A DNA stretch of 30,778 nucleotides from a virus: IMG/VR virus record IMGVR_UViG_3300010354_009325, positions 1 to 30,778 of that record, one strand, 5' to 3'. The notes under the pieces are model-generated. The model was not told where the DNA came from, did not search any database, and saw nothing but the letters and a program-made list of their open reading frames with translations. Position numbers and translations under genes: made by a program. This document shows positions 4,734-20,054 of this stretch, piece by piece (the stretch's first letter is position 1; every line of letters begins with the position of its first letter).

Positions 4734-4972
4734 TCTACCACCTCCCACGGTGATTCACTGCCTACGCTCAAAAGGTAAATGTGGGCTTTCCAAAGCGAAT
4801 CACAAAGCTTCCCCGAATCGTTACCCCCTAACCCAAAAGGATAGGCGTAAACGGCTCCGGTATTTAGCATGATAACGTAAGCCAGTCTGCCGGACTCGCA
4901 CATACGTTTCCACCTAAAATCCCATGATGCATCTATGGTTATTTCCCAGCCGTCGCGTAGTTTAAATTTCAT
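4730..4972 (-). CDS. Small protein of unknown function (80 aa)
   Basis: Not recognised. It is rich in tryptophan (WEITIDASWDFRWKR near the N-terminus, SLWKAHIYLL and SPWEVVE at the end) and predicted soluble and mostly beta. Its stop overlaps the methyltransferase start (ATGA), so it is translated in the same operon. It could be a small accessory or anti-restriction protein, but nothing in the sequence shows that. Confidence 0.65.
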   Translation of the reverse strand: MKFKLRDGWEITIDASWDFRWKRMCESGRLAYVIMLNTGAVYAYPFGLGGNDSGKLCDSLWKAHIYLLSVGSESPWEVVE

Positions 4973-6298: not shown

Positions 6299-7096
6299 CT
6301 AGAAAAGTACTAATTGCCCTATTTCGGTCATGATGTTTTCGGTTACTTTCTCTGGTACTAAATCAGGTTCTGCTGATTGGGTTTCTGTATTTCTGCCTGG
6401 TCTATTCCATCGATATTCACCACGCTGGTAGGCAAAGGTTTCCACGATAACGCTGGTTACTTTCTGGGATAGGGAATCACCGTGGATGATACGCGCTGGA
6501 ATATCGGCAAGCGTAAAGGTTATATGCGACATATAAACCGATAATATATCGACGTCCCAGCACTCGGCTACCATCGTTCTACAGGGTATAAACCCTTCTG
6601 TAAGTAGTACATTAGCAGCTGCTAATACCATTCTGCCAGAACCTACGCATGGTTCCCCGATAGTAATAAAGGGCTTTTCTGCCAGCATTTCAGAAACACC
6701 CCTCATTTGCATTTGCGCGCATAGGTTAGATAAATCCATAGGGGTAAAGAATTGCCCTAGCCTTTCATTACCCATATCCAGGCTTTCCCATACAGAACCC
6801 AGAATATCGCTATGCTCTCCGTTTTGCCTAAAGGCTATTTCCATAGCCTCTACCAGCATAGCAGCGATTATCGAGAATTTCAGTTTCTCTTCTGCCTTGT
6901 ATTTATTGAGAGTGCGTAAATACCATTTCTCATTTTCTGCGTATTTATCGTTTTTCCCATTCATGGCATTTTGCAATGCCAGCGAATACAGTTCGCAGAA
7001 ATCAGAAAATACGTTCCTGATGCTGTAACTACCGCTAAACGTGCTAAACTCTTTAACGATAGTATCTGCCGTTATCGTGCCTGGTTTAGCTTTCAT
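6299..7096 (-). CDS. N6-methylase-fold protein lacking the NPPY catalytic motif
   Basis: 265 residues. It resembles the HsdM/N6_Mtase fold: GQFFTPMDLSNL (114-125), the SAM-binding motif I GEPCVGSGRMVLAA (147-160), AECWDVDILSVYMSHI (177-192) and GDSLS (206-210). In active enzymes an (N/D)PP(Y/F) motif follows within about 30-50 residues. Here the chain continues with RGEYRWNRPGRNTE and ends at 265 with none. So it probably binds SAM but may not methylate adenine. Short phage and plasmid proteins of this form exist in databases, in my recollection. The start overlaps the primase-helicase stop by 11 bases. Confidence 0.7.
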   Translation of the reverse strand: MKAKPGTITADTIVKEFSTFSGSYSIRNVFSDFCELYSLALQNAMNGKNDKYAENEKWYLRTLNKYKAEEKLKFSIIAAMLVEAMEIAFRQNGEHSDILGSVWESLDMGNERLGQFFTPMDLSNLCAQMQMRGVSEMLAEKPFITIGEPCVGSGRMVLAAANVLLTEGFIPCRTMVAECWDVDILSVYMSHITFTLADIPARIIHGDSLSQKVTSVIVETFAYQRGEYRWNRPGRNTETQSAEPDLVPEKVTENIMTEIGQLVLF

Positions 7097-9044
7097 CTTC
7101 GATTTCCATCCAGTGTTTAGCAGCGGGTTTCCGTTTCTGTTTCTTCGGTCCTATTTCCTCGGCATTATTCGTATTTTCTGGATTCATAGCTGCCTGGAAT
7201 AAAGCTACCATACTAGGGTCTGGCGGCTCGAATCTGGCAGCTTCGATAATAAACTTAAATGCCGTGCTACCCTCTACTGCAAAATCACTTCTGGCTTTCA
7301 GCATATAGACGTTAGCCACGCCTATACCGTTCGCCATAACCCCTGTACGGTCTGCCTTTCTGGGACGCCAGACGGACATAATATTATCGGCTAATTGCTT
7401 TAATCCAGAGGAACCTTTTAGGTCGCTCATCTGAATAATGCGATTATCCCTGTGCTTTTCGTCGCTACTACTATGCTGCCGAGGATGCGCTACCACTACA
7501 ATATGCGTTCTGGTATCGACTGCTATTTCAGCTAGCATTTTCATCATGCTATCCAAATCAGAACGCTCGGCTGGACCTTCCTCTACCATGAAATGGATAT
7601 GGTCCACTAATACGAATTTTACCCCTAATTTGCGTATCGCATAAATAAGGGTATTTCGCATAGGCTCGATACGAATCGAACCATAACGGGTAAGTACCCA
7701 GAGTGGTAATTTCTCTAATGCGTCCAGAGAATCGTCTAGCTTCTGTTCTGATAGGCTATCAGGTGCAGCCTGGGACCATTGCCTTACCCATTTATCCAGC
7801 TGCCTTTGCGCTCCCATTTCAAACGGGCATACTAAGGTACGCATACCTTGCTTCGCCATTTGTAAAGCCCACTGGCTAGCAAAGGTAGATTTACCGCTGG
7901 ACGTATCACCAGTAACTAAGGTTACTTCCCCGTCCCTAACACCGCCCATAATATTATCTAAATCGGTCCAGCCTGTAGTGATACCTCTGGGATTATTACC
8001 CCGTAGGCTTTTCTTATAGGCTTCCCGTAATTCGGCTATTCTAACTACTGAGTCACCACCACTGGGTTTTGCTGCGTCAATATGACTATTTACGTCAAAT
8101 GCCTTACCGTATTTCTGTAGTGCCTCATTTGCATCTTTTACGTCTTTAGGCCATTCCCCTATTCTTACCCGATGGTTTCCCAGTTTATCTGCCAGACTAA
8201 TAGCACCTTTTCTACCAGCATCATCGTTATCGTAAATAATAACGATATCCTCGCATGCCTCTAACTGAGGTGTCCAGGCATCCGACCATCCTGTTTCGCC
8301 TATCGTGGTACTAATAACGTTCTGAAACCCTGCAACGCATATTGCTAAGGCGTCGAATTCACCACCGACAATAAGTAAGGTTTTAGTAGTATCGATTCCA
8401 TTAGGGGCAAATAATACCGAATCACCACCTACTAATCTGCGAAACGTTTTATCCTGAGGGGGTACACTTCGCAGTTTAATACAAGCTGCCGAATCAGGGT
8501 CTGGTCTGCCATTTACCCAGCGCGTAAAGGCAGGGATAACAATCCAGCCAGGCTTATCCGTTGACGTTACGGGTTCTGGATTAGCCAGCAACCTACGCCT
8601 GCGTTCTACGTCGCTGGTACCGTCTGCATTGCTACACCAGCCTAAGCGGTAACGCTCTGCCACCTCTAACGGTATAGCACGCTCTATAAGCCACTTTCTA
8701 GCGCGCTCGGCAGCTGGGCTAAGGGTAAGGGCTAGGGTCCATCGCTCAACGTCACCAGAAGCCATTACAGCGCGCATTTCACGCGCCATACGTTCTACTA
8801 GTTCCGTTTCATGGTCTGTACCTGCCACGGTCCTAACGTCATACTGCAACCCCAGTGTGCGCTTTAGTGATATTTCGTTACCCTTAGCGTCACACCGTTT
8901 GCAGTGCCACTGAAACGTTTTCGTATTTATGTAACAGTGTTTCTCTTTACCGCACTCTGGGCAATCCATTACGATTTCGGTACCAAGCCTTTTATGCTCG
9001 ATATTATTACGCCTCAGGAATTCCTCTGCGGTATCACTCTGCAT
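7086..9044 (-). CDS. Bifunctional primase-helicase (T7 gp4 type)
   Basis: 652 residues: RNA primer synthesis and hexameric DNA unwinding at the phage fork. The N-terminal zinc ribbon has C28, C31, C48 and C51. The TOPRIM domain shows GGEFDA (227-232) and the metal-binding DNDDAG (272-277). After a linker comes the DnaB/RecA-like helicase with Walker A GDTSSGKS (379-386), FEMG (408-411), Walker B VLVDHIHF (478-485), VVAHPRQ (517-523) and the DNA-binding loop region DLKGSSGLKQLADN (541-554). The length is close to T7 gp4 relatives. It overlaps the MazG-like gene upstream and the methylase-like gene downstream, so replication genes form one operon. No DNA polymerase is in this window. Confidence 0.92.
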   Translation of the reverse strand: MQSDTAEEFLRRNNIEHKRLGTEIVMDCPECGKEKHCYINTKTFQWHCKRCDAKGNEISLKRTLGLQYDVRTVAGTDHETELVERMAREMRAVMASGDVERWTLALTLSPAAERARKWLIERAIPLEVAERYRLGWCSNADGTSDVERRRRLLANPEPVTSTDKPGWIVIPAFTRWVNGRPDPDSAACIKLRSVPPQDKTFRRLVGGDSVLFAPNGIDTTKTLLIVGGEFDALAICVAGFQNVISTTIGETGWSDAWTPQLEACEDIVIIYDNDDAGRKGAISLADKLGNHRVRIGEWPKDVKDANEALQKYGKAFDVNSHIDAAKPSGGDSVVRIAELREAYKKSLRGNNPRGITTGWTDLDNIMGGVRDGEVTLVTGDTSSGKSTFASQWALQMAKQGMRTLVCPFEMGAQRQLDKWVRQWSQAAPDSLSEQKLDDSLDALEKLPLWVLTRYGSIRIEPMRNTLIYAIRKLGVKFVLVDHIHFMVEEGPAERSDLDSMMKMLAEIAVDTRTHIVVVAHPRQHSSSDEKHRDNRIIQMSDLKGSSGLKQLADNIMSVWRPRKADRTGVMANGIGVANVYMLKARSDFAVEGSTAFKFIIEAARFEPPDPSMVALFQAAMNPENTNNAEEIGPKKQKRKPAAKHWMEIEDES

Positions 9045-9402
9045 TTGTATTCCCCCGCTTTACGAAACCCTCTGGATAACGGGCGCGCAATTTATTGATA
9101 TTTTCGACTGCTACCTGAGAAAGTGATAATCCGTTTGCGTGGGCTAATACCGTTAAATACCAGAGCACGTCGCCTAATTCTTCGCAGAGGTGTTTCTTAT
9201 CGAGTTCCCTACCGTGCCGTTCCACTTTCTTAATGATTTCTGCCACCTCGCCAGACTCACCTGTAAGACCTAAGGCAAGGTACCAGTTAGGCGGTATTTC
9301 CCCGTTCATTTGCGCGGTACGCATCGCATTTGTTTCGTACCAGGTTAATGCCGTTTTCGTCATTTCGACTAGCATTGTTTCGCCTAATTTCTGGACTGTC
9401 AT
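9034..9402 (-). CDS. MazG-like nucleotide pyrophosphohydrolase
   Basis: 122 residues. The all-alpha NTP pyrophosphatase signature is present: GLTGESGEVAEIIKK (45-59, E49/E52/E55) and EELGDVLWYL (74-83, E75/D78), which bind magnesium and hydrolyse NTPs or dNTPs to monophosphates. Phage MazG proteins are thought to adjust nucleotide pools or lower alarmone signals. The start overlaps the preceding gene as ATGA, and its end overlaps the primase-helicase start by 11 bases. Catalytic residues look intact. Confidence 0.85.
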   Translation of the reverse strand: MTVQKLGETMLVEMTKTALTWYETNAMRTAQMNGEIPPNWYLALGLTGESGEVAEIIKKVERHGRELDKKHLCEELGDVLWYLTVLAHANGLSLSQVAVENINKLRARYPEGFVKRGNTNAE

Positions 9403-9995
9403 AATTTACGCCTTCTAATGGTTTCTCGCGCTACGCGCTCAATTTCGTTAACGGGGGATTCTTTTACCACTGGCTTTTCTGATAACCAGCGTTCGATTCG
9501 TTCCTGTTTCCAGCAATGGCTAGTATCTGTATAGCCACCGTTAATATGGAATTCGGATTCCATCATTCTATCTACTGCTAATTTCAGCTGGGCAACGGTA
9601 TAACCTTCCCGTAACCGTGCTCTGGCTATTGCCGTTCTGGAAGCGGTATAATCTACCGCCTGAGTACGCCTGGTTTTCTTACGCCAGTAATTCAGGGCTT
9701 CCTGTACCTCAGATTCTTCTGGGATTTCTCGATTGATTACAGGGTCTGTAAATACAAATTCGTTACCGTCCCATTTAGGCCGTCCATCTTCTGGTAATGT
9801 CGCTAATACAGCCGACATACCACCAAAGGCTTCCATATGGTCCGGTAGGGCTAAATCTATTTCCAGCATGCGTGCCACGTCTGTACGCTTGAAACGTACC
9901 GTATTAGCCCCTTGCTTAAAACGCTCTTTAGCCGATAACCAGAGTATCCTAGCCCGTAATCTAGCTACATCTACGTCTAAAGGCTCGGCACTCAT
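9399..9995 (-). CDS. Replication-organiser-like protein (helicase loader candidate)
   Basis: 198 residues. The C-terminal third (residues about 102-173: LNYWRKKTRRTQ, ARARLREGYTVAQLKLAVDR, then HCWKQERIERWL) resembles the DnaD/phage replisome organiser C-terminal module, whose usual pattern is I..RL.EGYT.E.l..vId....TLF...FE.YL. The N-terminal part is helical and could carry a winged helix (KRTDVARMLEIDL). Position just upstream of MazG and primase-helicase supports a role in helicase loading or origin recognition. The similarity is by eye and the family name is uncertain. Confidence 0.5.
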   Translation of the reverse strand: MSAEPLDVDVARLRARILWLSAKERFKQGANTVRFKRTDVARMLEIDLALPDHMEAFGGMSAVLATLPEDGRPKWDGNEFVFTDPVINREIPEESEVQEALNYWRKKTRRTQAVDYTASRTAIARARLREGYTVAQLKLAVDRMMESEFHINGGYTDTSHCWKQERIERWLSEKPVVKESPVNEIERVARETIRRRKL

Positions 9996-10003
9996 TTATA
10001 CCT

Positions 10004-10519
10004 CTAAAATGGCAAATCCTCACCGATAGTATCTGTTTCGTCTGCCAGGGGCGGTAACATCGTTTCCCCGTATGCATCGACTAAGATAGCCTTTTCTGCC
10101 GCTGTAAGGGGACGGAAATTAGTAGCCTGAGTTTTCTGGGTAGTTTTCCCCTGATATTCTTCGCTACTGGTTTTCACCGTCATTCTTACAATACGGTCCA
10201 GTAGTGCCTTTTCGACCTCTTTAGGGTCCGTTGCATCGAACGGAAATAAATAACCTACCGCTCGCAGAAAACGGATAAAACGGGGCATAGCCTTATCACT
10301 AAGCCAGAAACGCTGGTATTTCAGGATTTTCCCCTTCTGAGGGGAGTTAGGCTCGTGAATCTGAAACGAAACCTCGATAAACGGGGTTCCTGCTACCTTG
10401 CTAAGGTCTGGAAATGCGTCCAGAACAAATACCGTATATTCACCATCTGGAATGGTATTACCACTGGTTACTTTAATTTTATCGTCCCAGCTTTTATCGC
10501 CTGCATTAATCTTAGTCAT
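10004..10519 (-). CDS. DUF669-like protein, probable ssDNA-binding protein
   Basis: 171 residues. Layout resembles DUF669 phage proteins found next to Sak4/AAA ATPases: IPDGEYTVFV (24-33), FIEVSFQIHEP, then KGKILKYQRFWLSDKAMPRFIRFLRAVG. The C-terminus is acidic and ends GEDLPF, like the DDDIPF tip with which bacterial SSB recruits partners. It follows the RecA-like ATPase and an AGGAG ribosome site. I infer that it coats single-stranded DNA during phage replication and recombination; the OB fold itself is not provable by eye. Confidence 0.6.
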   Translation of the reverse strand: MTKINAGDKSWDDKIKVTSGNTIPDGEYTVFVLDAFPDLSKVAGTPFIEVSFQIHEPNSPQKGKILKYQRFWLSDKAMPRFIRFLRAVGYLFPFDATDPKEVEKALLDRIVRMTVKTSSEEYQGKTTQKTQATNFRPLTAAEKAILVDAYGETMLPPLADETDTIGEDLPF

Positions 10520-10563
10520 ACGCTCCTAATTACTGATAAATAAGGTTAGTTACGGGAAATGAA

Positions 10564-11481
10564 TCAGGCGCGCCTACGACGTGCCGATTCGCTAGGGGTA
10601 GAGGGGCTTAGCAGAGGTTCGTCGGCTTGTGTAGCAGCTGGCTTAACGGCTACATATTCTGCCGAATCATAATCGTTATGCGCTACTGTCAAATCTGGGT
10701 AACTAAACAGTAGCAGAGAGCCTAAGGTTGTCTGCCCAGGTGTTCTGGTATTCAGGGTAGCAGCAGGCCAGCCAGGCGCGGGTTTCGTAAGGGCAGAAGC
10801 GGTAGCACTCTGCCAGCGTATGGCATGCTGCATAGTTCCATCACCATTCTTACGAACCATAGCCAAGCCTACAGCATTAAAGAATTGGCCCATAGAATAA
10901 GGCAATTTCTGCCCTGCCAGCATAGGAATAGTAGTTTTCACTTGCTGGTCATCGATTTTATCCTCTGCCAGAAATAGGAATACCGTATTGCAGGGCAATG
11001 CCCGTTGCTGCGTCCAGATAGATTCGCATCCTGAGGTTAATTGTCCCCATTTCTCGAAACCCATATTAATAGCACCAGAATCGAAATCCAGCCTATCCCT
11101 GATACCTGATTCTACGCCTGCCAGCTTATTAATTGCCAGACGCTGTAAATCAGTAAATGAATCCACAATTAGCGTCTGATAAATCAGAGTTTGTCCATCG
11201 ATATTAATTTCGCATGCGGGCTGCCCGTCAATATCGACCTGTTTAGCCATTTTACAGGCATCGAATACTTTTCGGAAATCTTCCCAGCTTTCGATAATTA
11301 CCACTAAGGCATCTGGATTTGCATTCGTGACACTTGCCAGACCCTGAGGCTCTGTAAGTAAAATAAGCGGCCTGGGAGACCTTGCTGCCCATTCTGTTTT
11401 ACCCGCTCCACTTGCGCCTAGAATGGCAACCTTAAGAAAAGGGCGACGTTGGAACGTCTCGCTAGCTTTACCGATACGCAT
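10564..11481 (-). CDS. Sak4-like RecA-fold ATPase (phage single-strand annealing/recombination)
   Basis: 305 residues. Walker A is GASGAGKT (22-29) in the AAA_24/Sak4 context (FLKVAILGASGAGKTEWAA), followed by LILLTEPQG (39-47) and a Walker B-like strand LIVDSFTDLQRL. Sak4 proteins are short RecA-core ATPases that work with phage SSBs, and the next gene is SSB-like. The C-terminal 60 residues are low complexity and end in SARRRRA, perhaps a DNA-binding tail. It has its own promoter at 11525-11553 with a small leader hairpin. It is the first gene of the replication operon that runs to about 3.3 kb. Confidence 0.72.
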   Translation of the reverse strand: MRIGKASETFQRRPFLKVAILGASGAGKTEWAARSPRPLILLTEPQGLASVTNANPDALVVIIESWEDFRKVFDACKMAKQVDIDGQPACEINIDGQTLIYQTLIVDSFTDLQRLAINKLAGVESGIRDRLDFDSGAINMGFEKWGQLTSGCESIWTQQRALPCNTVFLFLAEDKIDDQQVKTTIPMLAGQKLPYSMGQFFNAVGLAMVRKNGDGTMQHAIRWQSATASALTKPAPGWPAATLNTRTPGQTTLGSLLLFSYPDLTVAHNDYDSAEYVAVKPAATQADEPLLSPSTPSESARRRRA

Positions 11482-11503
11482 ACTTAATCCCTGTGAGGTG
11501 TTC

Positions 11504-11516
11504 CCCGTCTATCGGG
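11504..11516 (-). promoter_or_regulatory. Short leader hairpin (CCCG/CGGG)
   Basis: In the leader between the promoter at 11525 and the Sak4-like gene, CCCG and CGGG enclose a 5-base loop. It is weak alone, but all five promoters of this type are followed by a hairpin. Confidence 0.35.
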
Positions 11517-11524
11517 TGTTTTCA

Positions 11525-11553
11525 CTTGTAACGCTCTGTATTGCGCCTGTCAA
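11525..11553 (-). promoter_or_regulatory. Sigma70-type promoter for the Sak4-like operon
   Basis: -35 TTGACA (11548-11553), 17-bp spacer, -10 TACAAG (11525-11530). The -35 begins directly after the TAG stop of the upstream nuclease gene (11554-11556). The ATG of the driven gene is 44 bases beyond the -10. Confidence 0.7.
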
Positions 11554-12744
11554 CTATTTAGTGCGCTGAGGCAGATTTAATTCTGTATGGCCACCGTTAC
11601 CCGCTACGGTATATCCCTGGGTATCGTGCCTGCTATGGCTAGCGCAAATTGCTGCATAATCGCATAACCGATTATACTGCCAGCACATCGCAGATTGCCG
11701 AATAAACCCCTCTGCCTCTTTAGTACCCAGCATTTCTTCTGCCCATAAATCGGTATTTTCTGGATACTCTGTTTCTCTGATACCATGCCATTTGTCAGCT
11801 ATTTTCTTCCATTTACGCATTTCCAGAGCGGAGTGATAGATTTCCGTCTGGGTTCTGGTAATTTCCCCAGGCTCGAATAGTTCTACAAATCGACCGTACC
11901 AGAATTGCGAATTATCCCTATTCAGCAATTCCGAATAGGTTTCTGCGTACCAGTCTGTAGAAGTAAGGCTACCGCCTGTACTCGAAATAGCTTCCATAAA
12001 TGATTTAGCAGTAGTCCAGGGTAATCCTGCCGTTTTCGCTAATCTGCTACCATCCTTAAGGCGTGGTAATTCGTCTGCCGTTTTCGGTGGTTTACTCTGA
12101 ATTACGTCATAAATAACCCCGCTTACTGGGATATCATTTTGACGCAATAACCACGCATAGCTTCTAACCTGCGGATTTCTACGATTCTTTTCGTACCAGT
12201 CATTTACTGGTACTGCCGTGGTTTTATGCTCTACGATAAAGTAACGGTTATTATGGAATACCACCATATCGACCTTGCCAGCGAATTCGATACCGTTAAG
12301 CCTTTTACCGTCTGAGGTAATAGGCGCGGTATAGGTACCCTCTACCGATTCTACGCGCCATTTATCGACCTCTGCCCAGGCAGCATGGTACCCCTGTAGC
12401 AGACGCCTAGCGTTAGCCCAGTCTTCTGCCAGTCCATCTAGCACGATAGGGTCAACGTAGCCAGATACCCCTAAGCCCGTCAAATTTGCCGATTCTCGCG
12501 CCTGTAGTACCATTTCGGTATGGTACCTATCGATAGCAGCTAGACCGCGTTCTAGGGGCTGTTCTGTTCCCTGTGTAGCAGGGTCGAAGTAGGCTTCCAG
12601 TCCATAGTGAACCAGGCTACCTAAATCGAATACCCGAATCCTGCCAGCTGGACGCAATCCCAGACCGTAACGCAATAGCCACTTCTGAGGGCAGGCAGCG
12701 GTAGCACGTTCTGAATTAGTGATAATATGCTTCGATTTTCCCAT
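11554..12744 (-). CDS. PD-(D/E)XK nuclease, Cas4/RecB-like with Fe-S cysteines
   Basis: 396 residues. The nuclease core shows EFAGKVDM (153-160) and YFIVEHKTT (168-176), giving D159, E172 and K174 as catalytic residues, then QVRSYAWLL, the usual helix. An early cysteine, C18 in ACPQKW, and three late cysteines, C354, C361 and C367, match the Cas4/AddB-type 4Fe-4S arrangement. Likely a 5'-3' exonuclease that resects ends for the Sak4/SSB pair, a common phage recombination set. The gene follows the XRE gene by 26 bases and belongs to the operon from the promoter at 13622. Confidence 0.82.
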   Translation of the reverse strand: MGKSKHIITNSERATAACPQKWLLRYGLGLRPAGRIRVFDLGSLVHYGLEAYFDPATQGTEQPLERGLAAIDRYHTEMVLQARESANLTGLGVSGYVDPIVLDGLAEDWANARRLLQGYHAAWAEVDKWRVESVEGTYTAPITSDGKRLNGIEFAGKVDMVVFHNNRYFIVEHKTTAVPVNDWYEKNRRNPQVRSYAWLLRQNDIPVSGVIYDVIQSKPPKTADELPRLKDGSRLAKTAGLPWTTAKSFMEAISSTGGSLTSTDWYAETYSELLNRDNSQFWYGRFVELFEPGEITRTQTEIYHSALEMRKWKKIADKWHGIRETEYPENTDLWAEEMLGTKEAEGFIRQSAMCWQYNRLCDYAAICASHSRHDTQGYTVAGNGGHTELNLPQRTK

Positions 12745-12770
12745 AATTAACCTCGTCCGTTTACTAATAT

Positions 12771-13121
12771 TTACGCGATTTCCCGATACCTATTATCGAG
12801 TTCCCTAGCCAGTTCCTCTACAGTAATTACCGTACCACCATTAAACCCGTATTTCTGTAGGTTTTCCCTAACGTGTTCCAGATAGCCCTTAGGCGGTAGC
12901 GGGTAATCCACCACTAAGCCAGGGTCGGATTGCAATAGCAGTTCTACGGGGCAGTAAAGTAATACCGCTATTTTCGCCAAACTGCGAAACATAGCCTTTT
13001 CTGGGTTGGCAATAACGTTATGGATTTGCTGCCTGCTAATATCACTGGCAACGGCCATATCCTGTACTGTCAACCCGATTTGCGCCTTTCGGATATTGAT
13101 ATTATTTGTAACGTAAATCAT
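12771..13121 (-). CDS. XRE-family helix-turn-helix regulator
   Basis: 116 residues. The N-terminal five-helix HTH covers about residues 9-60: NIRKAQIGLTVQDMAVASD, then ISRQQIHNVIANPEKA (28-43, recognition helix) and LAKIAVLLYCPVELLL. The C-terminal 55 residues (EHVRENLQKYGFNGGT, EELARELDNRY) may be a dimerisation part. The start overlaps the preceding gene as ATGA. It probably represses phage promoters; palindromes such as 20013-20027 in the divergent region are candidate operators, which is untested inference. Confidence 0.8.
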   Translation of the reverse strand: MIYVTNNINIRKAQIGLTVQDMAVASDISRQQIHNVIANPEKAMFRSLAKIAVLLYCPVELLLQSDPGLVVDYPLPPKGYLEHVRENLQKYGFNGGTVITVEELARELDNRYREIA

Positions 13122-13579
13122 GCGTTTCCACCTCGGCTAATAACGATATTCGGGTCCATTTCAAATTGATTATTTTCGTACCAGTCTTTTGAGTCGCCAG
13201 GGTGTTCGTATTTATCACCTCCGACCCGATGGTGAACACTGAGAGCAATTAGGTAAACCAGCCGATTCATAAATTCAGGATTTAACGCGGTCTGTATCAT
13301 TTCGCTATCGAGTAGCAATTTATACGATTTCGTTACGTCCACTTTATCACCAGGCTTTTCTCTGCCTGTGATTTCGGTCTGGGCAACGTCGTAAACATGC
13401 ATAGCGAATTGCTGATATACATGGATAATACCAGTAATATGCCCAGCTATCCCTAACCAGCTTTCTGCCAGATTTTCGAGTTCTAGGATTTCCTGATAAA
13501 TATCAGTAGGGATATTCAAATCCCCATTAATATACCTACTAGGACGTTTCAGATTACCGGATTCGTCGAATAAACGCAT
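13118..13579 (-). CDS. Unknown phage protein (153 aa)
   Basis: Not recognised. It is mainly helical (YQEILELENLAESWLGIAGH, then VYLIALSVHH) with no clear motif, no signal peptide and no long hydrophobic segment. It is the first gene of the operon with XRE and nuclease, behind the strong promoter at 13622-13650. The ATG at 13579 follows GGGAGCGCGCATC. Being first in a regulator operon, it might modulate the repressor or sense the host, but no sequence shows this. Confidence 0.65.
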   Translation of the reverse strand: MRLFDESGNLKRPSRYINGDLNIPTDIYQEILELENLAESWLGIAGHITGIIHVYQQFAMHVYDVAQTEITGREKPGDKVDVTKSYKLLLDSEMIQTALNPEFMNRLVYLIALSVHHRVGGDKYEHPGDSKDWYENNQFEMDPNIVISRGGNA

Positions 13580-13621: not shown

Positions 13622-13650
13622 ATTGTAACCCCTCACATTTCACTTGTCAA
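13622..13650 (-). promoter_or_regulatory. Strong sigma70-type promoter for the XRE/nuclease operon
   Basis: -35 TTGACA (13645-13650), 17-bp spacer, -10 TACAAT (13622-13627), the best match of the set. The -35 lies just beyond the stop codon of the vWA gene (13654-13656). Confidence 0.8.
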
Positions 13651-13653
13651 GCG

Positions 13654-15039
13654 TTACCTTGCTGCCGTCGCATTAGATGCGAAATCTGTAACGCTACCTT
13701 CTGCCAGGCTGGAAGCCAGAAGGGTTCTGCCCTCAGATAGAGTACGCAGGGTATTATTCATACTACTGGAATCGCCTATTACCAGATAATGCAGAGCACG
13801 GTTACTAAATGCCGATTCTGCATCACTGGGTATAATATGCCCGTCGCCGTCGCTAATTAGTAATACGTCTGCCGATGATTCCAGCTTCTGTATACGGTTA
13901 ATGAGAGGGCAGAAATTAGTACCACCACTGCAACGGATACGCATAATATCCTGTAGCAGTTTTACCCGATTTTCTGGTGTTTCCAGATTATCGGCAATAT
14001 TCCTGCTCTCAGTAGTAAATACTGAAAATGAAACAGGGCGGTTATTGTCTGCTGCTGAAAAGGCAGCTGCTACCGCAAATGCCTTAGCCTCTACCTCTAC
14101 GATTTGCATCGATGCAGAAACGTCCAGGGCAACGTGCATAGGGCCTCTACCCTTGCTACCCATATCTGCCATTTGCCAGCCTAAAGCCTGCCCTGAGACC
14201 ACTCTAACGGTCTGCATAGCACGGGTAGCAGGATGCGCCAGCATAGCCAGTTCTGAGGGCACTAATCGCCTAAAATCACGCGTGGTAGAAATATCATACG
14301 GCATAACGTTACCCCTTACCCGCTGCCTTACTGGTGAGGTCTTAAGGGCGTCCATGAATCTGCCAATATGTTTCAGGAATTCGTTTAGTGCTCTGCTATT
14401 ACGCTTCTGATTTACCAGTTCTGCTACGGTTTCATCCTCAGTATCGATATTTTCGGTACCCTGCATACCGTAGCACATAGCCAGCATTTTATTCGTTTCT
14501 TCGGCTTCCTCTACCGCTTCTGCAATTTTACCAGAAATACCACCCTGAAAAAGAGCACCTGCTAAAGGGTCACTTTCCAGGCTATCGGCAAAAGCTGCTA
14601 ACTGTTCCTGAGTCAAGCCAGGCTTAGGCTTGCTACCCTTACCCGCTTTCTGGTCTGGCTTCTGGTCTGGCTTCTGGTCTGGGCTAGGGCTAGGCCATTC
14701 CAGCCCTGCCAGATACTCGGCTAGCACCTCAGTAGCCAGGCTAGCCGTAATGATGCTGCCTTGCCCCTGAGCCTGTAGTTCTGCCCAGTCTGGTAGCTGG
14801 GCTAGCTGAGTGGTAGCCCAGTCCAGTATCCTACGCATAGGCGTTCCATCCGTTTCAGCGTCAACGCCCGTATTCGGGGCATAAACTGCGCCGAACACGT
14901 CACGGCATACATCATGCCCGTTTTCCCCTAGACGCGATTCTAGGGCCATTTCTGCACGTTCTAGGGCCGTATAGTACTTCCTGCCACGTTCATACTTTGC
15001 CTTAGTCAAGCTATCTAGGTCGAGTCTTACGTTCTGCAT
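13654..15039 (-). CDS. vWA-domain (MIDAS) protein, partner of the MoxR ATPase
   Basis: 461 residues. The C-terminal von Willebrand A domain (about 300-460) has a complete metal site: DVSAS (306-310), T374 in SGGTNF and D397 in LISDGDG. The N-terminal half is helical. It contains a triple DQKP linker (121-131) coded by three copies of a 12-bp repeat (14648-14683), then a helical region before the vWA domain. This layout resembles CobT/ViaA-type partners of MoxR ATPases, and a RavA-like MoxR gene lies upstream. I start at the ATG at 15039, seven bases after AGGTG. The GTG at 15075 lies inside the promoter leader. No CobN/BchH-type chelatase gene is present, so metal chelation is unlikely. Confidence 0.85.
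   Translation of the reverse strand: MQNVRLDLDSLTKAKYERGRKYYTALERAEMALESRLGENGHDVCRDVFGAVYAPNTGVDAETDGTPMRRILDWATTQLAQLPDWAELQAQGQGSIITASLATEVLAEYLAGLEWPSPSPDQKPDQKPDQKAGKGSKPKPGLTQEQLAAFADSLESDPLAGALFQGGISGKIAEAVEEAEETNKMLAMCYGMQGTENIDTEDETVAELVNQKRNSRALNEFLKHIGRFMDALKTSPVRQRVRGNVMPYDISTTRDFRRLVPSELAMLAHPATRAMQTVRVVSGQALGWQMADMGSKGRGPMHVALDVSASMQIVEVEAKAFAVAAAFSAADNNRPVSFSVFTTESRNIADNLETPENRVKLLQDIMRIRCSGGTNFCPLINRIQKLESSADVLLISDGDGHIIPSDAESAFSNRALHYLVIGDSSSMNNTLRTLSEGRTLLASSLAEGSVTDFASNATAAR
14648..14683 (-). repeat. Triple 12-bp repeat inside the vWA gene
   Basis: TTCTGGTCTGGC occurs at 14648 and 14660, and once more at 14672 with one final change. It codes the flexible linker (DQKP repeated) between the N-terminal helical part and the vWA half. 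Copy number may vary between relatives. Confidence 0.75.
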
Positions 15040-15058
15040 TGCTACACCTGAGTTCTGG

Positions 15059-15073
15059 GTTCGTCCGTCGAAC
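15059..15073 (-). promoter_or_regulatory. Leader hairpin GTTCG/CGAAC with GGACGGACGA motif
   Basis: A 5-bp stem with loop ACGGA on the minus strand lies in the vWA leader. Its descending arm is part of GACGGACGA, the word found before several other genes of the module. It is followed by CAGAAC, which also follows the leader hairpins at 17521 and 19749. Confidence 0.45.
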
Positions 15074-15079
15074 ACCTGC

Positions 15080-15108
15080 TATCTACACCTATCCACTACA
15101 CCTGTCAA
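15080..15108 (-). promoter_or_regulatory. Promoter for the vWA gene
   Basis: -35 TTGACA in GGCTTGACA (15103-15108), 17-bp spacer, weaker -10 TAGATA (15080-15085). It sits at the edge of the iteron/AT-rich region. Confidence 0.6.
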
Positions 15109-15484
15109 GCCCTAGCTTGCTCTTTTCTGCCAGCGTAGTACCTTTTCGGCAATCGGCCCAGAAAATCGTGATTTTCCAACTTTTGCCGATATTTTCTTTT
15201 CTTAGGATAGGTAAGGGTAGAGTACCCTAGGGTCTTAGGTCTTAAGCCTTAGGTCTTACCAGGTACTGAGTCTTAGGTCTTAGGTCTGAGTCTGTAAACT
15301 AAGGTACCTAAGGGTACCAGGTGTAGCTTCGTGTATAGTATATTATATATATATACTCTATACCTTACCTTACCTACCTACCTACCTACCTTACCTATCT
15401 TAAGAAAAGAAACATGCGTTGAGACGGAAATTTGCACTTTTCTGCCGTGCTCTCTGTTTATCACTAATCCAGAATGGCATGGAT
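15109..15484. other. Putative replication origin: TCTTAGG iterons, AT tract, CTAC repeats
   Basis: No gene is credible here. From 15200 to 15300 the heptamer TCTTAGG occurs at 15200, 15233, 15271 and 15278, with near-copies at 15240 and 15248 and GGTACC-type palindromes just after. A tract of almost pure TA follows (15333-15361). Then come CTTACC and CTAC tandem repeats (15362-15398), a pyrimidine-rich strand. Iterons beside an easily melted AT block is the usual architecture of phage and plasmid origins. The CTTAGG core is shared with the array at 1416-1569. Function is inferred. Confidence 0.5.
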
Positions 15485-16744
15485 TTAGGACATTACGCCT
15501 TTAAGCCGTTTCATCATATCTGCCATTACCGATTTCCGAATTGTCTCGATAATATAGATATTCCCGGAAATGACGCTTGCATCCTCTGGTTCTGGTTCCA
15601 GCTGCATTAACTCAGTAGTCATATTCTTAAGCCAGATAACAAAGGGTTCCTGTACCGCTGCATGCATAATGTTACTCACCTCATCATTCATACAGGTTAG
15701 ACCCTTTGCTTCCCCTGTAGTCATATTTGCCAGCTTTTGCTTCTGGTAGGCAGAAAAGTACTGGGAAGCTTTAATTTTAGCTGCATTAGCTTCCTGTACC
15801 TCTACGCTACTAAGCTGGGCTATTGCGGCCCTGATTACCAGCTTCTGGTCTGGTGTAGTCCAGAGCGCATATTCTAACCACTTCAAATCTGTACGCTGTA
15901 CCGCATTTCTGCCAGCAAGCCAGGCGTGCGCTTGCAGAACCCTAATTGCCTTACGCCAGGTTCTGGTAGATACATGCACGTTAGTTTTCTGGTCTGCCAG
16001 AGAAATAGCGAGTTTTCGGATAGCATCCTTTACTGCCTCAGGAATAGAAATATCCCTAACCGTTTTCTGTAATTGCCTAATTTCCTCAGGGGTTACGGTA
16101 GCGGTAATTTTGACGTTACGGGAATCGGATACGTTATCGAAAATAACGCTATTCCAGTCGTCTGTACCTGCCTCTAAAGGTTGCACTTCCAGCTTGTGAA
16201 AGAATCGGTCGTAAAAGGCTAATAACGAATCCTCGAATGGCCCTAAATCGGCAGATTTACCGCCCTTCTGGCCGCGCAATTCAGGCGGTAATTCGTTGCT
16301 GGCAATAGCCCCGAAAATGGCAGGGATTTTAACCCCTTGAAATTCACGCTCTGAGAGCACGCGCAATAGAGCCTGCAACGTAGGGTTATTTGATTTGAAA
16401 CCCTCATCTAAAAGGAAGGTGGTAGCAGTAGGCAGGAACCCGTTAACGTTACGGGTATAGGTACCGTTCTGCAACGCTACCACGTCAACCCCTCCCAGAA
16501 TATCGTCTGGCGTACTGGATTTAGCCAGGCCGACGCTGAAATGTGTACCGCCTGTAATGTACTCTGCCAGTGCCTCTACGATAGCCGTTTTAGCTTCCCC
16601 TCGCGGTCCCAGAAGTAGGACCAATTCCCCTGCTATCATCGATGCTAACATGCACTCGATAACCTCAGACCGCTGGCGAAAACGGGAATTCAGTTCTGCC
16701 GAAATTGTCTGTACGCGCTGGATTAGTGTGTTCTGCATTTTCAT
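15485..16744 (-). CDS. RavA/MoxR-type AAA+ ATPase
   Basis: 419 residues. AAA+ motifs: Walker A LLGPRGEAKT (44-53), then STPDDILGGVD (77-87), the MoxR insertion with GTYTRNVNGFLP, Walker B TFLLDEGFKSNN (109-120), LLRVLSEREF, sensor 1 GAIASNELP (145-153) and an arginine finger region LLAFYDRF (174-181). The pattern is closest to RavA, which works with the vWA protein ViaA. The C-terminal 200 residues carry a helical lid and a predicted helical tail. I start at the ATG at 16744, which follows GGACGAAAACG; a longer frame from 16801 would lack a ribosome site. The MoxR-vWA pair typically remodels or activates a substrate complex; the substrate here is unknown. Confidence 0.88.
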   Translation of the reverse strand: MKMQNTLIQRVQTISAELNSRFRQRSEVIECMLASMIAGELVLLLGPRGEAKTAIVEALAEYITGGTHFSVGLAKSSTPDDILGGVDVVALQNGTYTRNVNGFLPTATTFLLDEGFKSNNPTLQALLRVLSEREFQGVKIPAIFGAIASNELPPELRGQKGGKSADLGPFEDSLLAFYDRFFHKLEVQPLEAGTDDWNSVIFDNVSDSRNVKITATVTPEEIRQLQKTVRDISIPEAVKDAIRKLAISLADQKTNVHVSTRTWRKAIRVLQAHAWLAGRNAVQRTDLKWLEYALWTTPDQKLVIRAAIAQLSSVEVQEANAAKIKASQYFSAYQKQKLANMTTGEAKGLTCMNDEVSNIMHAAVQEPFVIWLKNMTTELMQLEPEPEDASVISGNIYIIETIRKSVMADMMKRLKGVMS

Positions 16745-16784
16745 CGTTTTCGTCCGTCTGTAATAGCAATAAAGCCAGTGTCGA

Positions 16785-17117
16785 TTATTCTGCAATTTCA
16801 ACGGTATCTGTATTGCACATAAATAGATTCAGGTTTTCGTCCATAAATTCGATTTCGTAGTAATGCTTCAGAGCCTGATACATTCTCAGGCTTACTTTGT
16901 ATGCAGGGAAACCAGGCGGCCACAACCCAACAATGCTGAGAAAGCCACCATCGATAACGATAGTAATACTATGGTTATCGCAGTAAATTTCGTTTGCTTC
17001 TGCGTCGATTTTCCAGTCTCTTTTAAGCAATGGCGACTGGTTCATATCACTTGAATAGCTATCGTAAATACCGATAAATAATTCTGCAATTCTCTCAAAA
17101 CTAATGGTCATGGTCAT
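16785..17117 (-). CDS. Unknown protein of the MoxR operon (110 aa)
   Basis: Not recognised. Begins MTMTISFERIAELFIGIYDSYS; mixed alpha/beta, acidic end, with the strand-turn pattern YCDNHSITIVIDGGFLSIVG in the middle. I start at the ATG at 17117, which follows ACAGACGAGGA, a variant of the module's shared leader word. It lies between the tRNA-like minihelix and the MoxR gene, 40 bases before MoxR. A role tied to the MoxR complex is plausible by position only. Confidence 0.65.
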   Translation of the reverse strand: MTMTISFERIAELFIGIYDSYSSDMNQSPLLKRDWKIDAEANEIYCDNHSITIVIDGGFLSIVGLWPPGFPAYKVSLRMYQALKHYYEIEFMDENLNLFMCNTDTVEIAE

Positions 17118-17148
17118 TCCTCGTCTGTAAATGCCTGATATTAGGCAA

Positions 17149-17189
17149 ACCACTTCTGGGAATCGAACCCAGAGAAAACCGTTAGTGGT
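17149..17189 (-). other. tRNA-like minihelix (T-arm plus acceptor-like stem)
   Basis: On the minus strand ACCACT (17189-17184) pairs with AGTGGT (17154-17149). TCTGGG (17173-17168) pairs with CCCAGA (17160-17155) around the loop TTCGATT (17167-17161), an exact match to the tRNA T-loop consensus TTCRANY. The two 6-bp stems stack to 12 bp, as in a tRNA acceptor/T-arm, with a 10-base one-sided bulge where the rest of a tRNA would be. There is no CCA end, D-arm or anticodon arm. It begins two bases after the stop of the 102-aa gene. Confidence 0.45.
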
Positions 17190-17191
17190 GG

Positions 17192-17500
17192 TTAGCAGTA
17201 GCTAGGGAATCGCGCCTTAATCATAACGATAGCGAGCTTATAGTTATCCAGTAGGTTCTGCATAACCTGCTTATCCAGTTCAGTCGTAGCGACGTAGCGC
17301 AAGTTATGCCCTGCGTAGCTAGCGAGTGTTTCCAGCGCATCTACAGCCCAGCATGCACACACTGCATGCACCTTAAGGTGCGCTCCCTTCTGCCCAGGCT
17401 TGAATTCACGCCGTTCGTGGTTCGCATCGAACGCTCTGCCAACCATGTTATAGATATCGACTGGCAGGAAGATTGATTCTCTTTTAGGGCACATGGTCAT
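17192..17500 (-). CDS. Unknown protein (102 aa), first gene of the MoxR operon
   Basis: Not recognised. Helical, with HAVCACWAVDALETLASYAG near the middle and two close cysteines (CACW); no signal peptide. It is the first gene after the promoter at 17552-17580 and the 8-bp leader hairpin at 17521. Two ATGs (17500 and 17494, ATGACCATG) follow the module motif CAGACGGACGACACC. Confidence 0.65.
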   Translation of the reverse strand: MTMCPKRESIFLPVDIYNMVGRAFDANHERREFKPGQKGAHLKVHAVCACWAVDALETLASYAGHNLRYVATTELDKQVMQNLLDNYKLAIVMIKARFPSYC

Positions 17501-17520
17501 GGTGTCGTCCGTCTGTTCTG

Positions 17521-17540
17521 GGTTAGCACCTTTGCTAACC
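17521..17540 (-). promoter_or_regulatory. Conserved leader hairpin GGTTAGCA/TGCTAACC
   Basis: Perfect 8-bp stem with a 4-base loop between the promoter at 17552 and the ATG at 17500. A near-copy is at 19749-19769, and both are followed on the minus strand by CAGAAC-type sequence. With the promoters they form a repeated regulatory cassette. Confidence 0.65.
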
Positions 17541-17551
17541 TTGTGAGCCTA

Positions 17552-17580
17552 TCTATACTCCCCAGCTTTACAGGTGTCAA
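17552..17580 (-). promoter_or_regulatory. Promoter for the MoxR operon
   Basis: -35 TTGACA in AGCTTGACACC (17575-17580), 17-bp spacer, -10 TATAGA (17552-17557). The upstream sequence (AAAGTGAATCATGCAGC) is nearly the same as that upstream of the promoter at 19781, so the pair is duplicated beyond the core boxes. A second TTGACA at 17619-17624 overlaps the stop of the 501-aa gene but has no matching -10. Confidence 0.8.
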
Positions 17581-17621
17581 GCTGCATGATTCACTTTTCT
17601 TCTAGCCGTATCACTTTTTTG

Positions 17622-19127
17622 TCAAGCTACCTGCCGGATAGCCTCTACCAGTGCCTTTACCGTAGAGGCTGCCCCTTCTGCCAGCTGCCGCTTGTGGCCT
17701 TCTGCCTCTACCACGCGGTACAGGTAGCCCAGCGTAGGGTCCGCTTCCAGTATCAGGCTAAGCCCGTCAACCTGTACCTCACTAGCCCCTTGCATGGTAG
17801 CCTTAGCAGCCTCTCGAATCATCTTATCTGAGAGCAGGGCAATCGGTACCAGGCTAGGCTTAGGTGGTTCGTAGGCTCCCAGAATTTCAAACTTTCGGAA
17901 AGCCTGTACCCCGTCTGCCTTTCTGCCGTCAAACGTGTGTCCCATTACCGCGCCTCTATAGTGCCTCACGTCCAGCCGTTCTGCCCAGGCACCTTCAATT
18001 TCGATACGGTCCCCTATTTCGAGCGCATTAAGCATTTTATTGATACGGCTCTCATTTATGTTACCGCGTTTCTTTACCGTAGGAATATCGGTATTATTTT
18101 CAGATTCGTAGGCTGCAATTTGCGCATCGATAATGGTACGCACTTCCAGAATACGGTTATTGAGTTCGTCTGTAGTCAAGCCCAGCATTTCGGAATACAG
18201 CTGGGCTTGCTGAATAATATCCGTCAATTCCGAAATGCGCTTATCATGCTGCCCCTTACGAGTCATTTCGGTTATTTTCTGCAATGCTTCGGCAATATCA
18301 CTAATACGGGACATTAAACCATCTTCTACCACCGTAGCAGCCGTTTCAAGCGTGCGCTCATCTTTTGGCATGGTAAGTAGCAGGAAATGGTTTCCCTTAA
18401 TTGTCTCGAATGCGCGCATTACCTTCTGGACGTAATTCCAGGGGCAATTATCCAGTCCCGTTCTGGGAGCAAACCAGAAACCACCTCTGGCAGAGAGTGA
18501 ATAGCAACCTGCCTTTTCAAACTGGAATTTCAGTATTTCCCTAAGGCGTACCACGTCGTAATGAGGCGCGGTAACGTAGGTATCGACCTCTGCCAGAATA
18601 TTCTGGGCAAAGGCAGAAAAGAAATCGTATTCCTCTGCCGTAAATTCAGACTGCATAGCCAGGCAGCGGTCACGATAATCAGTTACCGATTCGCCAGCTT
18701 TTGCGCGGTCTGGCGTAAATCGCCAGTGATAGGTATCGTTACTGGTATTGTAGGTAATGGTACCGATTTGCACCATTCTATTCTTTTCGGTATCGTCTGA
18801 GAGGTTCGCAGAATAGCTGTAGCTGGATAACTCTTTATCCTGCCCAGTATGCTTTACCTGTGCAGCGACAAATTCACGCTTACCGTTAGGGCCACGCAAA
18901 TAGATACGTTCGTTGACGTACATCAATAATGTACGAAAACGTGCGAGCCCAGAAGTAGCATCTGGCAGGGTAGCGGTATCCAGGCCGACATCCTTAAAGG
19001 CATTATGCAAATCCATAAAGGGTACCGCATCATGCGTCAGGTACCAGTTAATCGAGGCTCCGATGGTTTGTTCGTCTGTGAGGGCAACATTAGCCAGCTG
19101 GGAAATACGGGTATTATGCGTTTTCAT
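17622..19127 (-). CDS. Large coiled-coil protein of the MoxR-vWA module (501 aa)
   Basis: Not confidently recognised; it is reminiscent of uncharacterised phage proteins (DUF6744-like) seen beside MoxR/vWA pairs, from memory and untested. Residues 1-250 form a mixed domain with ARGGFWFAPR (213-222) and WNYVQKVMRAFE. Residues about 268-345 are a long coiled coil (ISDIAEALQKITEM, ISELTDIIQQAQLY, RILEVRTIIDAQ). The C-terminal 125 residues include a beta-rich segment (ALEIGDRIEIEGAWAERLDV). The start is preceded by ACGGACGGACGAATACC, the module motif. A substrate or adaptor of the MoxR-vWA machine fits the position and size; that is inference. Confidence 0.7.
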   Translation of the reverse strand: MKTHNTRISQLANVALTDEQTIGASINWYLTHDAVPFMDLHNAFKDVGLDTATLPDATSGLARFRTLLMYVNERIYLRGPNGKREFVAAQVKHTGQDKELSSYSYSANLSDDTEKNRMVQIGTITYNTSNDTYHWRFTPDRAKAGESVTDYRDRCLAMQSEFTAEEYDFFSAFAQNILAEVDTYVTAPHYDVVRLREILKFQFEKAGCYSLSARGGFWFAPRTGLDNCPWNYVQKVMRAFETIKGNHFLLLTMPKDERTLETAATVVEDGLMSRISDIAEALQKITEMTRKGQHDKRISELTDIIQQAQLYSEMLGLTTDELNNRILEVRTIIDAQIAAYESENNTDIPTVKKRGNINESRINKMLNALEIGDRIEIEGAWAERLDVRHYRGAVMGHTFDGRKADGVQAFRKFEILGAYEPPKPSLVPIALLSDKMIREAAKATMQGASEVQVDGLSLILEADPTLGYLYRVVEAEGHKRQLAEGAASTVKALVEAIRQVA

Positions 19128-19180
19128 GGTATTCGTCCGTCCGTTAGGGGTTAGGGCAAGGGCAAGGGGTAGAGTAAGGG

Positions 19181-19417
19181 TTACTGCATTGCGTCTGAGA
19201 GAGCGTTACACACTTCGGTAAAATCGTTGCTGGGCAAGCGGTACAGACCTTCCAGCAATTCCCAGCTAATCCAGTGGTCGGGCTGGAACGTGCCTACAGG
19301 GTTTCCGATTTCACCAGTGTATTCTTTACAGTCGATATAAACGGTAGCGAAGGTTCTGGTTTCCCCTGTAAGGGTAATGGTAAGACCTGCCGCTTGAATG
19401 GTGGTATCGTTTCGCAT
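19181..19417 (-). CDS. Small unknown protein (78 aa)
   Basis: Not recognised. Beta-rich N-terminus (TIQAAGLTITLTGETRTFATVYIDCKEY), helical C-terminus. The ATG follows CTGAGAGTACAGA, which also precedes the 91-aa gene upstream. It lies between the 91-aa and 501-aa genes in the operon from the promoter at 19781. The 53-base gap after its stop is C-rich on the coding strand (CCCTTGCCCTAACCCC) and precedes the 501-aa gene. Confidence 0.6.
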   Translation of the reverse strand: MRNDTTIQAAGLTITLTGETRTFATVYIDCKEYTGEIGNPVGTFQPDHWISWELLEGLYRLPSNDFTEVCNALSDAMQ

Positions 19418-19429
19418 TCTGTACTCTCA

Positions 19430-19457
19430 GGTTAGGGGTTAGCGGTTAGGGGTTAGC
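19430..19457. repeat. 14-bp tandem repeat GGTTAGGGGTTAGC, two copies
   Basis: Two perfect copies (19430-19443, 19444-19457) and a partial third (GGTTACG). The array overlaps the TAA stop of the 91-aa gene and the leader of the 78-aa gene. Similar TTAGGGG words occur at 19143-19157. Confidence 0.8.
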
Positions 19458-19728
19458 GGTTACGCTCTGCAAGCCGTGCTTTCATTTTCAGGTGTCGGGT
19501 AGTGTTTGCCTGTTCCAGTGATTCACGCTTTGCGTGTGCATCACGAAGGGTATTCTTCACCATATGCAGGGTTCTAACGACGTTCATCATTTCCTGAGCT
19601 ATTTCGGTATCGTGATAGAACAGTTCGGTACATTCCCGTTCCATCTGCGTCGCCATTGCTACCAGGTCTGCGATCCGCTCGGCAGGGGTCTTATATGTTT
19701 CAGCAGGCAGGTTGTGATTGATAATCAT
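19453..19728 (-). CDS. Small helical unknown protein (91 aa)
   Basis: Not recognised. Starts MIINHNLPAETYKTPAERIADL; strongly helical, with likely coiled coil (EIAQEMMNVVRTLHMVKNTLRDAH) and a basic tail (MKARLAERNR). I start at the ATG at 19728 after GAGAGTACAGACC; a frame from 19809 would start inside the promoter. It is the first gene of the operon that ends with the 501-aa protein. Confidence 0.6.
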   Translation of the reverse strand: MIINHNLPAETYKTPAERIADLVAMATQMERECTELFYHDTEIAQEMMNVVRTLHMVKNTLRDAHAKRESLEQANTTRHLKMKARLAERNR

Positions 19729-19748
19729 GGTCTGTACTCTCAGGTTCT

Positions 19749-19769
19749 GGTTAGCACCGTTTGCCAACC
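19749..19769 (-). promoter_or_regulatory. Conserved leader hairpin GGTTGGCA/TGCTAACC
   Basis: Copy of the 17521 hairpin with one base change in one arm. On the minus-strand RNA the change turns an A-U pair into G-U, so the stem survives, which supports an RNA function on that strand. Confidence 0.6.
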
Positions 19770-19780
19770 TTGTGATGACA

Positions 19781-19809
19781 GTAGTAAAGCATACCGTTAC
19801 AGGTGTCAA
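19781..19809 (-). promoter_or_regulatory. Promoter for the coiled-coil protein operon
   Basis: -35 TTGACA in AGCTTGACACCTGTAA (19804-19809), 17-bp spacer, -10 TACTAC (19781-19786, weak). The -35 flank matches the promoter at 17552 over about 25 bases (AAAGTG, ATCATG, AGCTTGACACCTGTAA). Confidence 0.65.
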
Positions 19810-20054
19810 GCTTCATGATGCACTTTTTTTGCAGGTCATGTTCTTTTTTTGATTCGCTAGCAATATCACTACTTTAGCGACGTGGTAGCGAAGTGGTCAC
19901 ACCTTGTAAGCTATACATGCACGCGCGCGCGTGTAGGCTTGTGTCACGTCCAGAACAGAAAAGAGCAAGGCATAACTTGACAGACGGTGTAGGCTATGGC
20001 TAGCTGGGCACTGTCACCAGTGGTGACGTTCCCTAACCGTTCCCCTGGCACCGT
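19810..20054. promoter_or_regulatory. Divergent control region between the minus and plus blocks
   Basis: No gene. It holds the -35 flank of the minus-strand promoter, T-runs at 19824-19848, the alternating palindrome ACGCGCGCGCGT (19921-19932), a plus-strand TTGACA (19977-19982) without a good -10, and the inverted repeat GTCACCA-G-TGGTGAC (20013-20027). The last is a good operator candidate in front of the plus-strand block. Confidence 0.55.

Follow-up and report, generated by a model that had tools for sequence, protein, structure and literature searches.

A MoxR ATPase, a vWA protein and a DUF6744 protein form a conserved triad on phages and plasmids

The genes for a MoxR AAA+ ATPase, a vWA protein and a DUF6744 protein were found as a conserved triad on phages and plasmids and at prophage-like loci, and this observation is well supported. 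The window, meaning the whole stretch of DNA analysed here, comes from IMG/VR as a linear virus record 30,778 bases long; in it the three genes lie on the minus strand together with four small ORFs (Table 1). The three proteins very probably act as one functional unit. By analogy with characterised MoxR-vWA systems, the triad is likely to work by a remodelling mechanism, and the gene context suggests that its target may well, with a probability approaching even, lie in the DNA replication or recombination apparatus of the element. The complete reading, in which MoxR as motor, the vWA protein as co-chaperone and DUF6744 as adaptor would remodel the replication or recombination complex of the element, is evenly balanced between right and wrong. 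DUF6744, a family without known function, becomes a component of a defined machine of three genes, with a testable set of partners, that occurs on phages and on plasmids from at least three bacterial phyla. The third component differs from those of the known MoxR-vWA ternary systems, and DUF6744 itself is a named family.

The module and its proteins in the window

Genes from position 1 to approximately 19.8 kb are on the minus strand. Those preceding the module comprise terminase genes (1-1252), a RusA-like resolvase, a methyltransferase, the primase/helicase, and genes for a replication-initiator-like protein, an SSB, a Sak4-like annealing protein and a PD-(D/E)XK exonuclease. Likely tail genes, judged from position and sequence and not by profile scan, occupy 24-30 kb. 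Two further matches, both below curated cut-offs, were to a ParB-like protein (2496-3104) and to a Dam-like adenine methyltransferase (3879-4748), and no tRNA or Rfam match was obtained within the window. Translation starts at ATG 15039 for the vWA gene (rather than GTG 15075), at ATG 16744 or 16738 for MoxR (rather than TTG 16801) and at ATG 17117 for an ORF originally called at 122 residues were considered more likely.

Table 1. Features of the module and of the adjacent genes in the window
Feature	Position	Strand	Basis
vWA co-chaperone (putative), 461 aa from ATG 15039	13654-15039	-	Pfam VWA_2 below cut-off, MIDAS, relatives
MoxR-clade AAA+ ATPase, about 419 aa	15485-16744	-	bpMoxR, AAA_lid_8, RavA AAA+ module in PDB
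DUF6744 protein, 501 aa	17622-19127	-	Pfam PF20529, L001 homologue, structure models
Small ORF, 110 aa, same putative transcript as MoxR	16785-17117	-	No family; not kept with triad
Small ORF, 102 aa	17192-17500	-	No family; not kept with triad
Small ORF, 78 aa	19181-19417	-	No family; 26-residue match in L033 only
Small ORF, 91 aa from ATG 19728	19453-19728	-	No family; not kept with triad
Promoter-like TTGACA element and leader, before 91-aa ORF and DUF6744	19740-19811	-	
Promoter-like TTGACA element and leader, before small genes and MoxR	17500-17582	-	71% identical to 19809 copy
Promoter-like TTGACA element before vWA	15075-15110	-	Only -35 core in common
Non-coding structured MoxR-vWA intergenic stretch with 24-nt inverted repeat	15185-15420	.	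Repeat, folding z
Adjacent operon: two small genes (one HTH), PD-(D/E)XK exonuclease, Sak4-like, SSB, replication-initiator-like	9399-13579	-	
Primase/helicase, after adjacent operon	7086-9044	-	

An earlier note, made from the sequence alone, had proposed a RavA-type MoxR ATPase. The MoxR assignment was borne out by Pfam, with 105 bits for bpMoxR (PF20030) and 57 bits for AAA_lid_8. The best relative in the PDB was E. coli RavA (residues 5-303, E 2e-32), the match covering the AAA+ module and lid only, and the RavA equivalog model of NCBIfam was matched with 140 bits against a cut-off of 681, the match stopping at residue 317 of 438. The RavA C-terminal region was unmatched in the window MoxR with both the PDB and the NCBIfam profiles. 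The RavA-type description therefore holds for the AAA+ module and lid but not for the C-terminal part.

The vWA protein was matched weakly by Pfam and reached 24 bits, against 500, for the ViaA model of NCBIfam. The complete MIDAS site that had been claimed was present near the C-terminus, with D306-S308-S310, T374 and D397. This protein is 47% identical to its counterpart in locus L001 and 27% identical to that of a Moorella phage, with the MIDAS residues shared, and neither a fused effector domain nor a metallopeptidase domain was recognised in it. Sensor 1, sensor 2, the arginine finger, the Walker B glutamate, and the lysine and second glycine of Walker A never varied in the MoxR proteins of 64 triads, nor did D306, S308, S310 and D397 of the vWA protein. 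Slight variation was observed for the Walker B aspartate (kept in 61/64), the first Walker A glycine (62/64) and MIDAS T374 (60 T, 3 S, 1 M). Both features of a MoxR-vWA pair, a MoxR-clade AAA+ ATPase with intact catalytic motifs and an adjacent MIDAS vWA protein, are thus present.

The characterised pair nearest in sequence is RavA-ViaA, which acts on respiratory enzymes of the host (PMC3893208, PMC10585395), and the machine might instead remodel a host enzyme or complex in favour of the element. Such host takeover is distinctly unlikely, as a target common to hosts from Bacillota, Actinomycetota and Cyanobacteriota would need to be a very general one, and the missing RavA C-terminal match also argues against it.

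The third protein is, by sequence, a divergent DUF6744 member. Its residues 6-334 were aligned to profile positions 2-306 of 314 of Pfam PF20529 (DUF6744) at 26.9 bits against a cut-off of 27, and this was the sole family found by Pfam besides one chance-level match. The motif GG-[YW]-F is common to the protein and the family, 9 of the 10 members of the aligned set matched Pfam at E 0.1 or better, the L001 homologue is 50% identical to the 501-aa protein, and the Moorella phage member scored 206 bits. The AlphaFold2 single-chain model comprised an N-terminal alpha/beta domain of 240 residues (pLDDT 91.6), a three-helix coiled coil (256-349), a disordered linker and a small C-terminal domain (427-500); the linker and the extra C-terminal stretch were also found in L001 and L008. 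The protein had been described as coiled-coil, which fits the modelled helices but leaves out the DUF6744 alignment and the alpha/beta domain. Overall conservation among DUF6744 proteins is poor, yet a recognisable core is kept, and DUF6744 was a separate protein in every locus read.

For the 501-aa protein, Foldseek returned nothing from the PDB at E <= 0.001 with either the whole model or the N-domain. In VIA-align, the coiled coil matched helical bundles with Z of 8-11 and no match of the N-domain exceeded Z 6.3, and as these scores lie within the quoted background of the tool, no fold is claimed. No convincing solved relative was obtained in a sequence search with the DUF6744 profile. Among predicted viral structures, four protein matches were found at E <= 0.001 (three uncharacterised, one nameless; one from HVTV-1). 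With tblastn against described phage genomes, no match was obtained for the 501-aa protein and one phage for the Moorella form, and a viral-contig scan gave nothing with the 501-aa protein alone and L001 only with its small alignment. No paper naming DUF6744 or giving its function was found in the literature searched; RefSeq uses DUF6744 as a product name, including for homologues adjoining MoxR and vWA.

The four small genes, which the earlier note had counted as partners, could not be upheld as such. No family was found for them in Pfam, PHROG or NCBIfam, and no homologue was observed beside the triad in the compared loci, L033 with its 26-residue match being the sole exception. DUF6744, MoxR and vWA are retained without the four small genes in two close relatives, L001 and L008. 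Of the two genes downstream of vWA, at 13118 and 12771, both recur in L006 and the latter in L008 as well.

Three nearly identical promoters had also been claimed. The leaders at 19809 and 17580 were 71% identical up to the start codon, but the third, at 15108, showed 45-46% identity to these and had the -35 core alone in common, so the description applies to two at most. The -35 core GCTTGACANSTGTA was exact at all three module promoters, and a copy with a single mismatch precedes the replication operon, at 13650; the core was counted 4 times in the window against 0.06 expected, and a general promoter scan of the window gave matches not above chance. A second element, GACGGACGA, was seen on the minus strand at window 15061, 16750, 17505 and 19133, upstream of vWA, MoxR, the 102-aa ORF and DUF6744; allowing one mismatch, 8 copies were present in the window against 3.6 expected. 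The arms of the inverted repeat in the MoxR-vWA gap lie at 15193-15216 and 15389-15412, and the gap folds well below its shuffles (z -4.6). The matching gap of L001 (11219-11560) was structured as well (z -6.2), and in L006 three direct repeats of 20 nt lie close to its counterpart. A replication origin in the gap was considered and rejected, since the cumulative GC skew does not turn there; the turn is at about 19 kb, at the change of gene direction.

Co-occurrence of the three genes

Among viral loci seeded by MoxR alone, DUF6744 was found beside the pair in 32 of 50 distinct loci (24/39 and 8/11). For L006, a close relative without DUF6744, the contig end falls just upstream of MoxR. DUF6744 was present in 24 of 76 MoxR-seeded loci on genome contigs, and the genome loci lacking it were mostly chromosomal-type, from Sporosarcina, Bhargavaea, and deltaproteobacterial and Dadabacteria bins; many of the loci from these bins were also without a match to the vWA profile used here. 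A first genome-contig scan with a diverse MoxR alignment gave no matches. With DUF6744 as the seed, an adjacent AAA ATPase and vWA were carried by 9 of the 10 plasmid loci that were read (Bacillota, Actinomycetota, Cyanobacteriota), and 9 of 13 assessable genome loci carried the pair; three of the DUF6744-seeded genome loci lie in genomes already reached via MoxR loci.

In 62 of the 66 loci, the distance from DUF6744 to MoxR or vWA was no more than 1.6 kb. The gene orders DUF6744-MoxR-vWA (45 loci), MoxR-vWA-DUF6744 (17) and MoxR-DUF6744-vWA (3) were observed, and as the orders differ, the association outlives rearrangement. Part of the material for the profiles came from early loci, whose matches are therefore expected by design; loci from L029 onward (except the repeat L073) are outside the building set of the DUF6744 profile. 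The proposal of a conserved third component with the MoxR-vWA pair is strongly supported by these independent loci. In the earlier note, relatives keeping the pair but never the other genes were named as evidence against the module; the outcome is mixed, as the small genes were always missing, while a relative of the 501-aa protein was mostly kept in mobile elements.

Pairs without DUF6744 do occur among the chromosomal-type loci of Sporosarcina and Bhargavaea, which would suit a simpler explanation in which an ordinary MoxR-vWA pair has its neighbours by chance. For the module this explanation is hardly credible, given the recurrent adjacency in several gene orders and by independent kinds of seeding. 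That adjacency refutes DUF6744 as a chance neighbour; for the four small genes, the chance explanation stands.

Presence of DUF6744 clusters by lineage on a MoxR tree of 110 rows and needs 10 changes. A viral MoxR clade without DUF6744 was noted (L038, L045, L050, L051, L053, L056, L058-L062, L067). In both of its scanned members a reverse transcriptase is encoded downstream of vWA (L038:8957-9859, L053:9249-10079), and no TR/VR repeats of a diversity-generating retroelement came to light in a search of viral loci that lack DUF6744. One Sporosarcina genome (L155 / L188 and L089; G004) holds a complete triad and, separate from it, a chromosomal-type pair that lacks DUF6744.

DUF6744 without this type of MoxR-vWA pair was observed in some loci (L025, L181, L182, L185, L186). 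Gene 25 of the haloarchaeal tailed virus HVTV-1 (L159:9815-10966) matched a DUF6744 profile at E 1e-29, with vWA and AAA ATPase genes about 15 kb away. DUF6744 at L181 has, at a distance of a few kb, an AAA ATPase of a different type and a protein in which a HELYH motif was seen by eye; this arrangement recalls the jumbo-phage pair of MoxR and metallopeptidase-vWA. In Aphanizomenon phage CL131, an LPD29 protein (L003:758-1600) replaces DUF6744 beside MoxR and vWA, and a DNA polymerase III beta gene adjoins these three. As a candidate parallel third component, DUF3150 was looked for, and neither the window nor the literature searched contained it.

Genomic context and possible function

In the window, L006 and L008, the vWA gene adjoins an HTH gene, a PD-(D/E)XK exonuclease and Sak4. 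Among 94 ORFs neighbouring triads in virus loci, the commonest families were exonuclease (7), primase/helicase (4) and DnaB (3), with two each of DNA polymerase, ligase and Sak4; these counts are raw, and random early phage genes are also rich in replication genes. Several plasmid triads are near genes for DNA polymerase III beta (dnaN), SSB, a helicase or a primase; the Nocardia triad neighbours conjugation genes, and no annotated replication gene is near the Streptomyces triad. The neighbours point to DNA metabolism, and this evidence is suggestive.

MoxR rings spend ATP in remodelling a protein held by the MIDAS site of a vWA protein (PMC7159879, a review). On this established biology, the MoxR AAA+ ring of the triad would be the motor and the vWA co-chaperone would hold the target through its MIDAS metal site, ATP hydrolysis pulling on or freeing the held protein. 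DUF6744 is most simply seen as a dedicated adaptor or bound partner, which would link motor to target. From the context, the target might be a replication or recombination protein of the element itself, or a host protein acting on that apparatus, and the machine would be used before virion assembly.

A chaperone for virion assembly has been proposed for ATV p618/p892 and for jumbo-phage MoxR-vWA pairs, and such a role is assigned to viral pairs by PMC7824862, where the ATV work is cited. For the triad this is very improbable. It occurs on plasmids with a MOBP relaxase, among them a Nocardia plasmid of conjugative type, with a type IV coupling-protein gene and ParAB, for which no capsid, tail or terminase gene is annotated. 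The window triad lies beside replication genes and far from the likely tail genes. Its setting among replication and recombination genes makes virion assembly unlikely as the general role of the triad. The triad also speaks against virion assembly as the main task of MoxR-vWA chaperones in mobile elements.

The triad could also be a conflict module of mobile elements, countering host defence or excluding competing phages or plasmids in the manner of the MoxR-vWA ternary conflict systems of bacteria. This is unlikely but deserves some weight, because presence is patchy (12 of 398 Bacillota-phylum genomes were over the cut-off), the triad is spread over phages and plasmids of several phyla, the nearest Pfam family to the MoxR is bpMoxR, which belongs to the beta-propeller type of ternary conflict system (PMC7159879), and overall DUF6744 conservation is poor. 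However, an effector domain was recognised in none of the three proteins, PADLOC gave no convincing match, swapping of fused effectors was not seen, and DUF6744 retains its recognisable core instead of a variable effector region. Remodelling of the replication or recombination complex is the reading that we prefer.

Comparison with known MoxR-vWA systems

RavA-ViaA provides the best PDB and NCBIfam relative of the window MoxR module, and the vWA protein is weakly ViaA-like. Both window proteins are far below the equivalog cut-offs, and the C-terminal region of RavA was not matched. To our knowledge, RavA-ViaA has no DUF6744 partner. Cobaltochelatase CobS/CobT (phage porphyrin-biosynthesis PHROG 249) is alike in its AAA+ and vWA logic, but the match was weak (E 2e-4) and bpMoxR and RavA fit the window MoxR far better. 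No large chelatase subunit (CobN/ChlH) was found among the window proteins scanned, from a record that may be a fragment, which agrees with the earlier statement that the module does not serve cobalamin synthesis.

Virus-borne pairs of an AAA+ ATPase and a MIDAS vWA protein, as in the window, have been described in jumbo phages, with a metallopeptidase-vWA (PMC7824862), in Hardycor1 and HVTV-1 (PMC7911831) and in ATV, where p618/p892 is linked to tail development. These were reported as pairs, whereas the window has a third component and a vWA protein without a recognised metallopeptidase domain. A virion-assembly system of the ATV type is expected only on elements that make virions, in contrast to a triad that is also carried by a conjugative-type plasmid without an annotated virion gene.

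The bacterial MoxR-vWA ternary conflict systems (VMAP, iSTAND, FtsH and beta-propeller; PMC7159879) have the same composition of MoxR, MIDAS vWA and a conserved third protein, and the window MoxR matches their bpMoxR model. Their vWA or third components have fused effectors, and none was recognised in the window with Pfam, PADLOC or NCBIfam; a Pfam scan of the module found no propeller or FtsH domain. Unlike these systems of bacteria, the window triad is carried by phages and plasmids among replication genes. The triad thus resembles the MoxR-vWA ternary systems but differs from the four described types in its third component, DUF6744. We tentatively suggest, as a possibility short of probable, that it represents an unrecognised and widespread ternary AAA+ class of tailed phages, plasmids and, with the genes separated, haloarchaeal viruses, which has a third component of uncharacterised fold and would remodel replication or recombination complexes.
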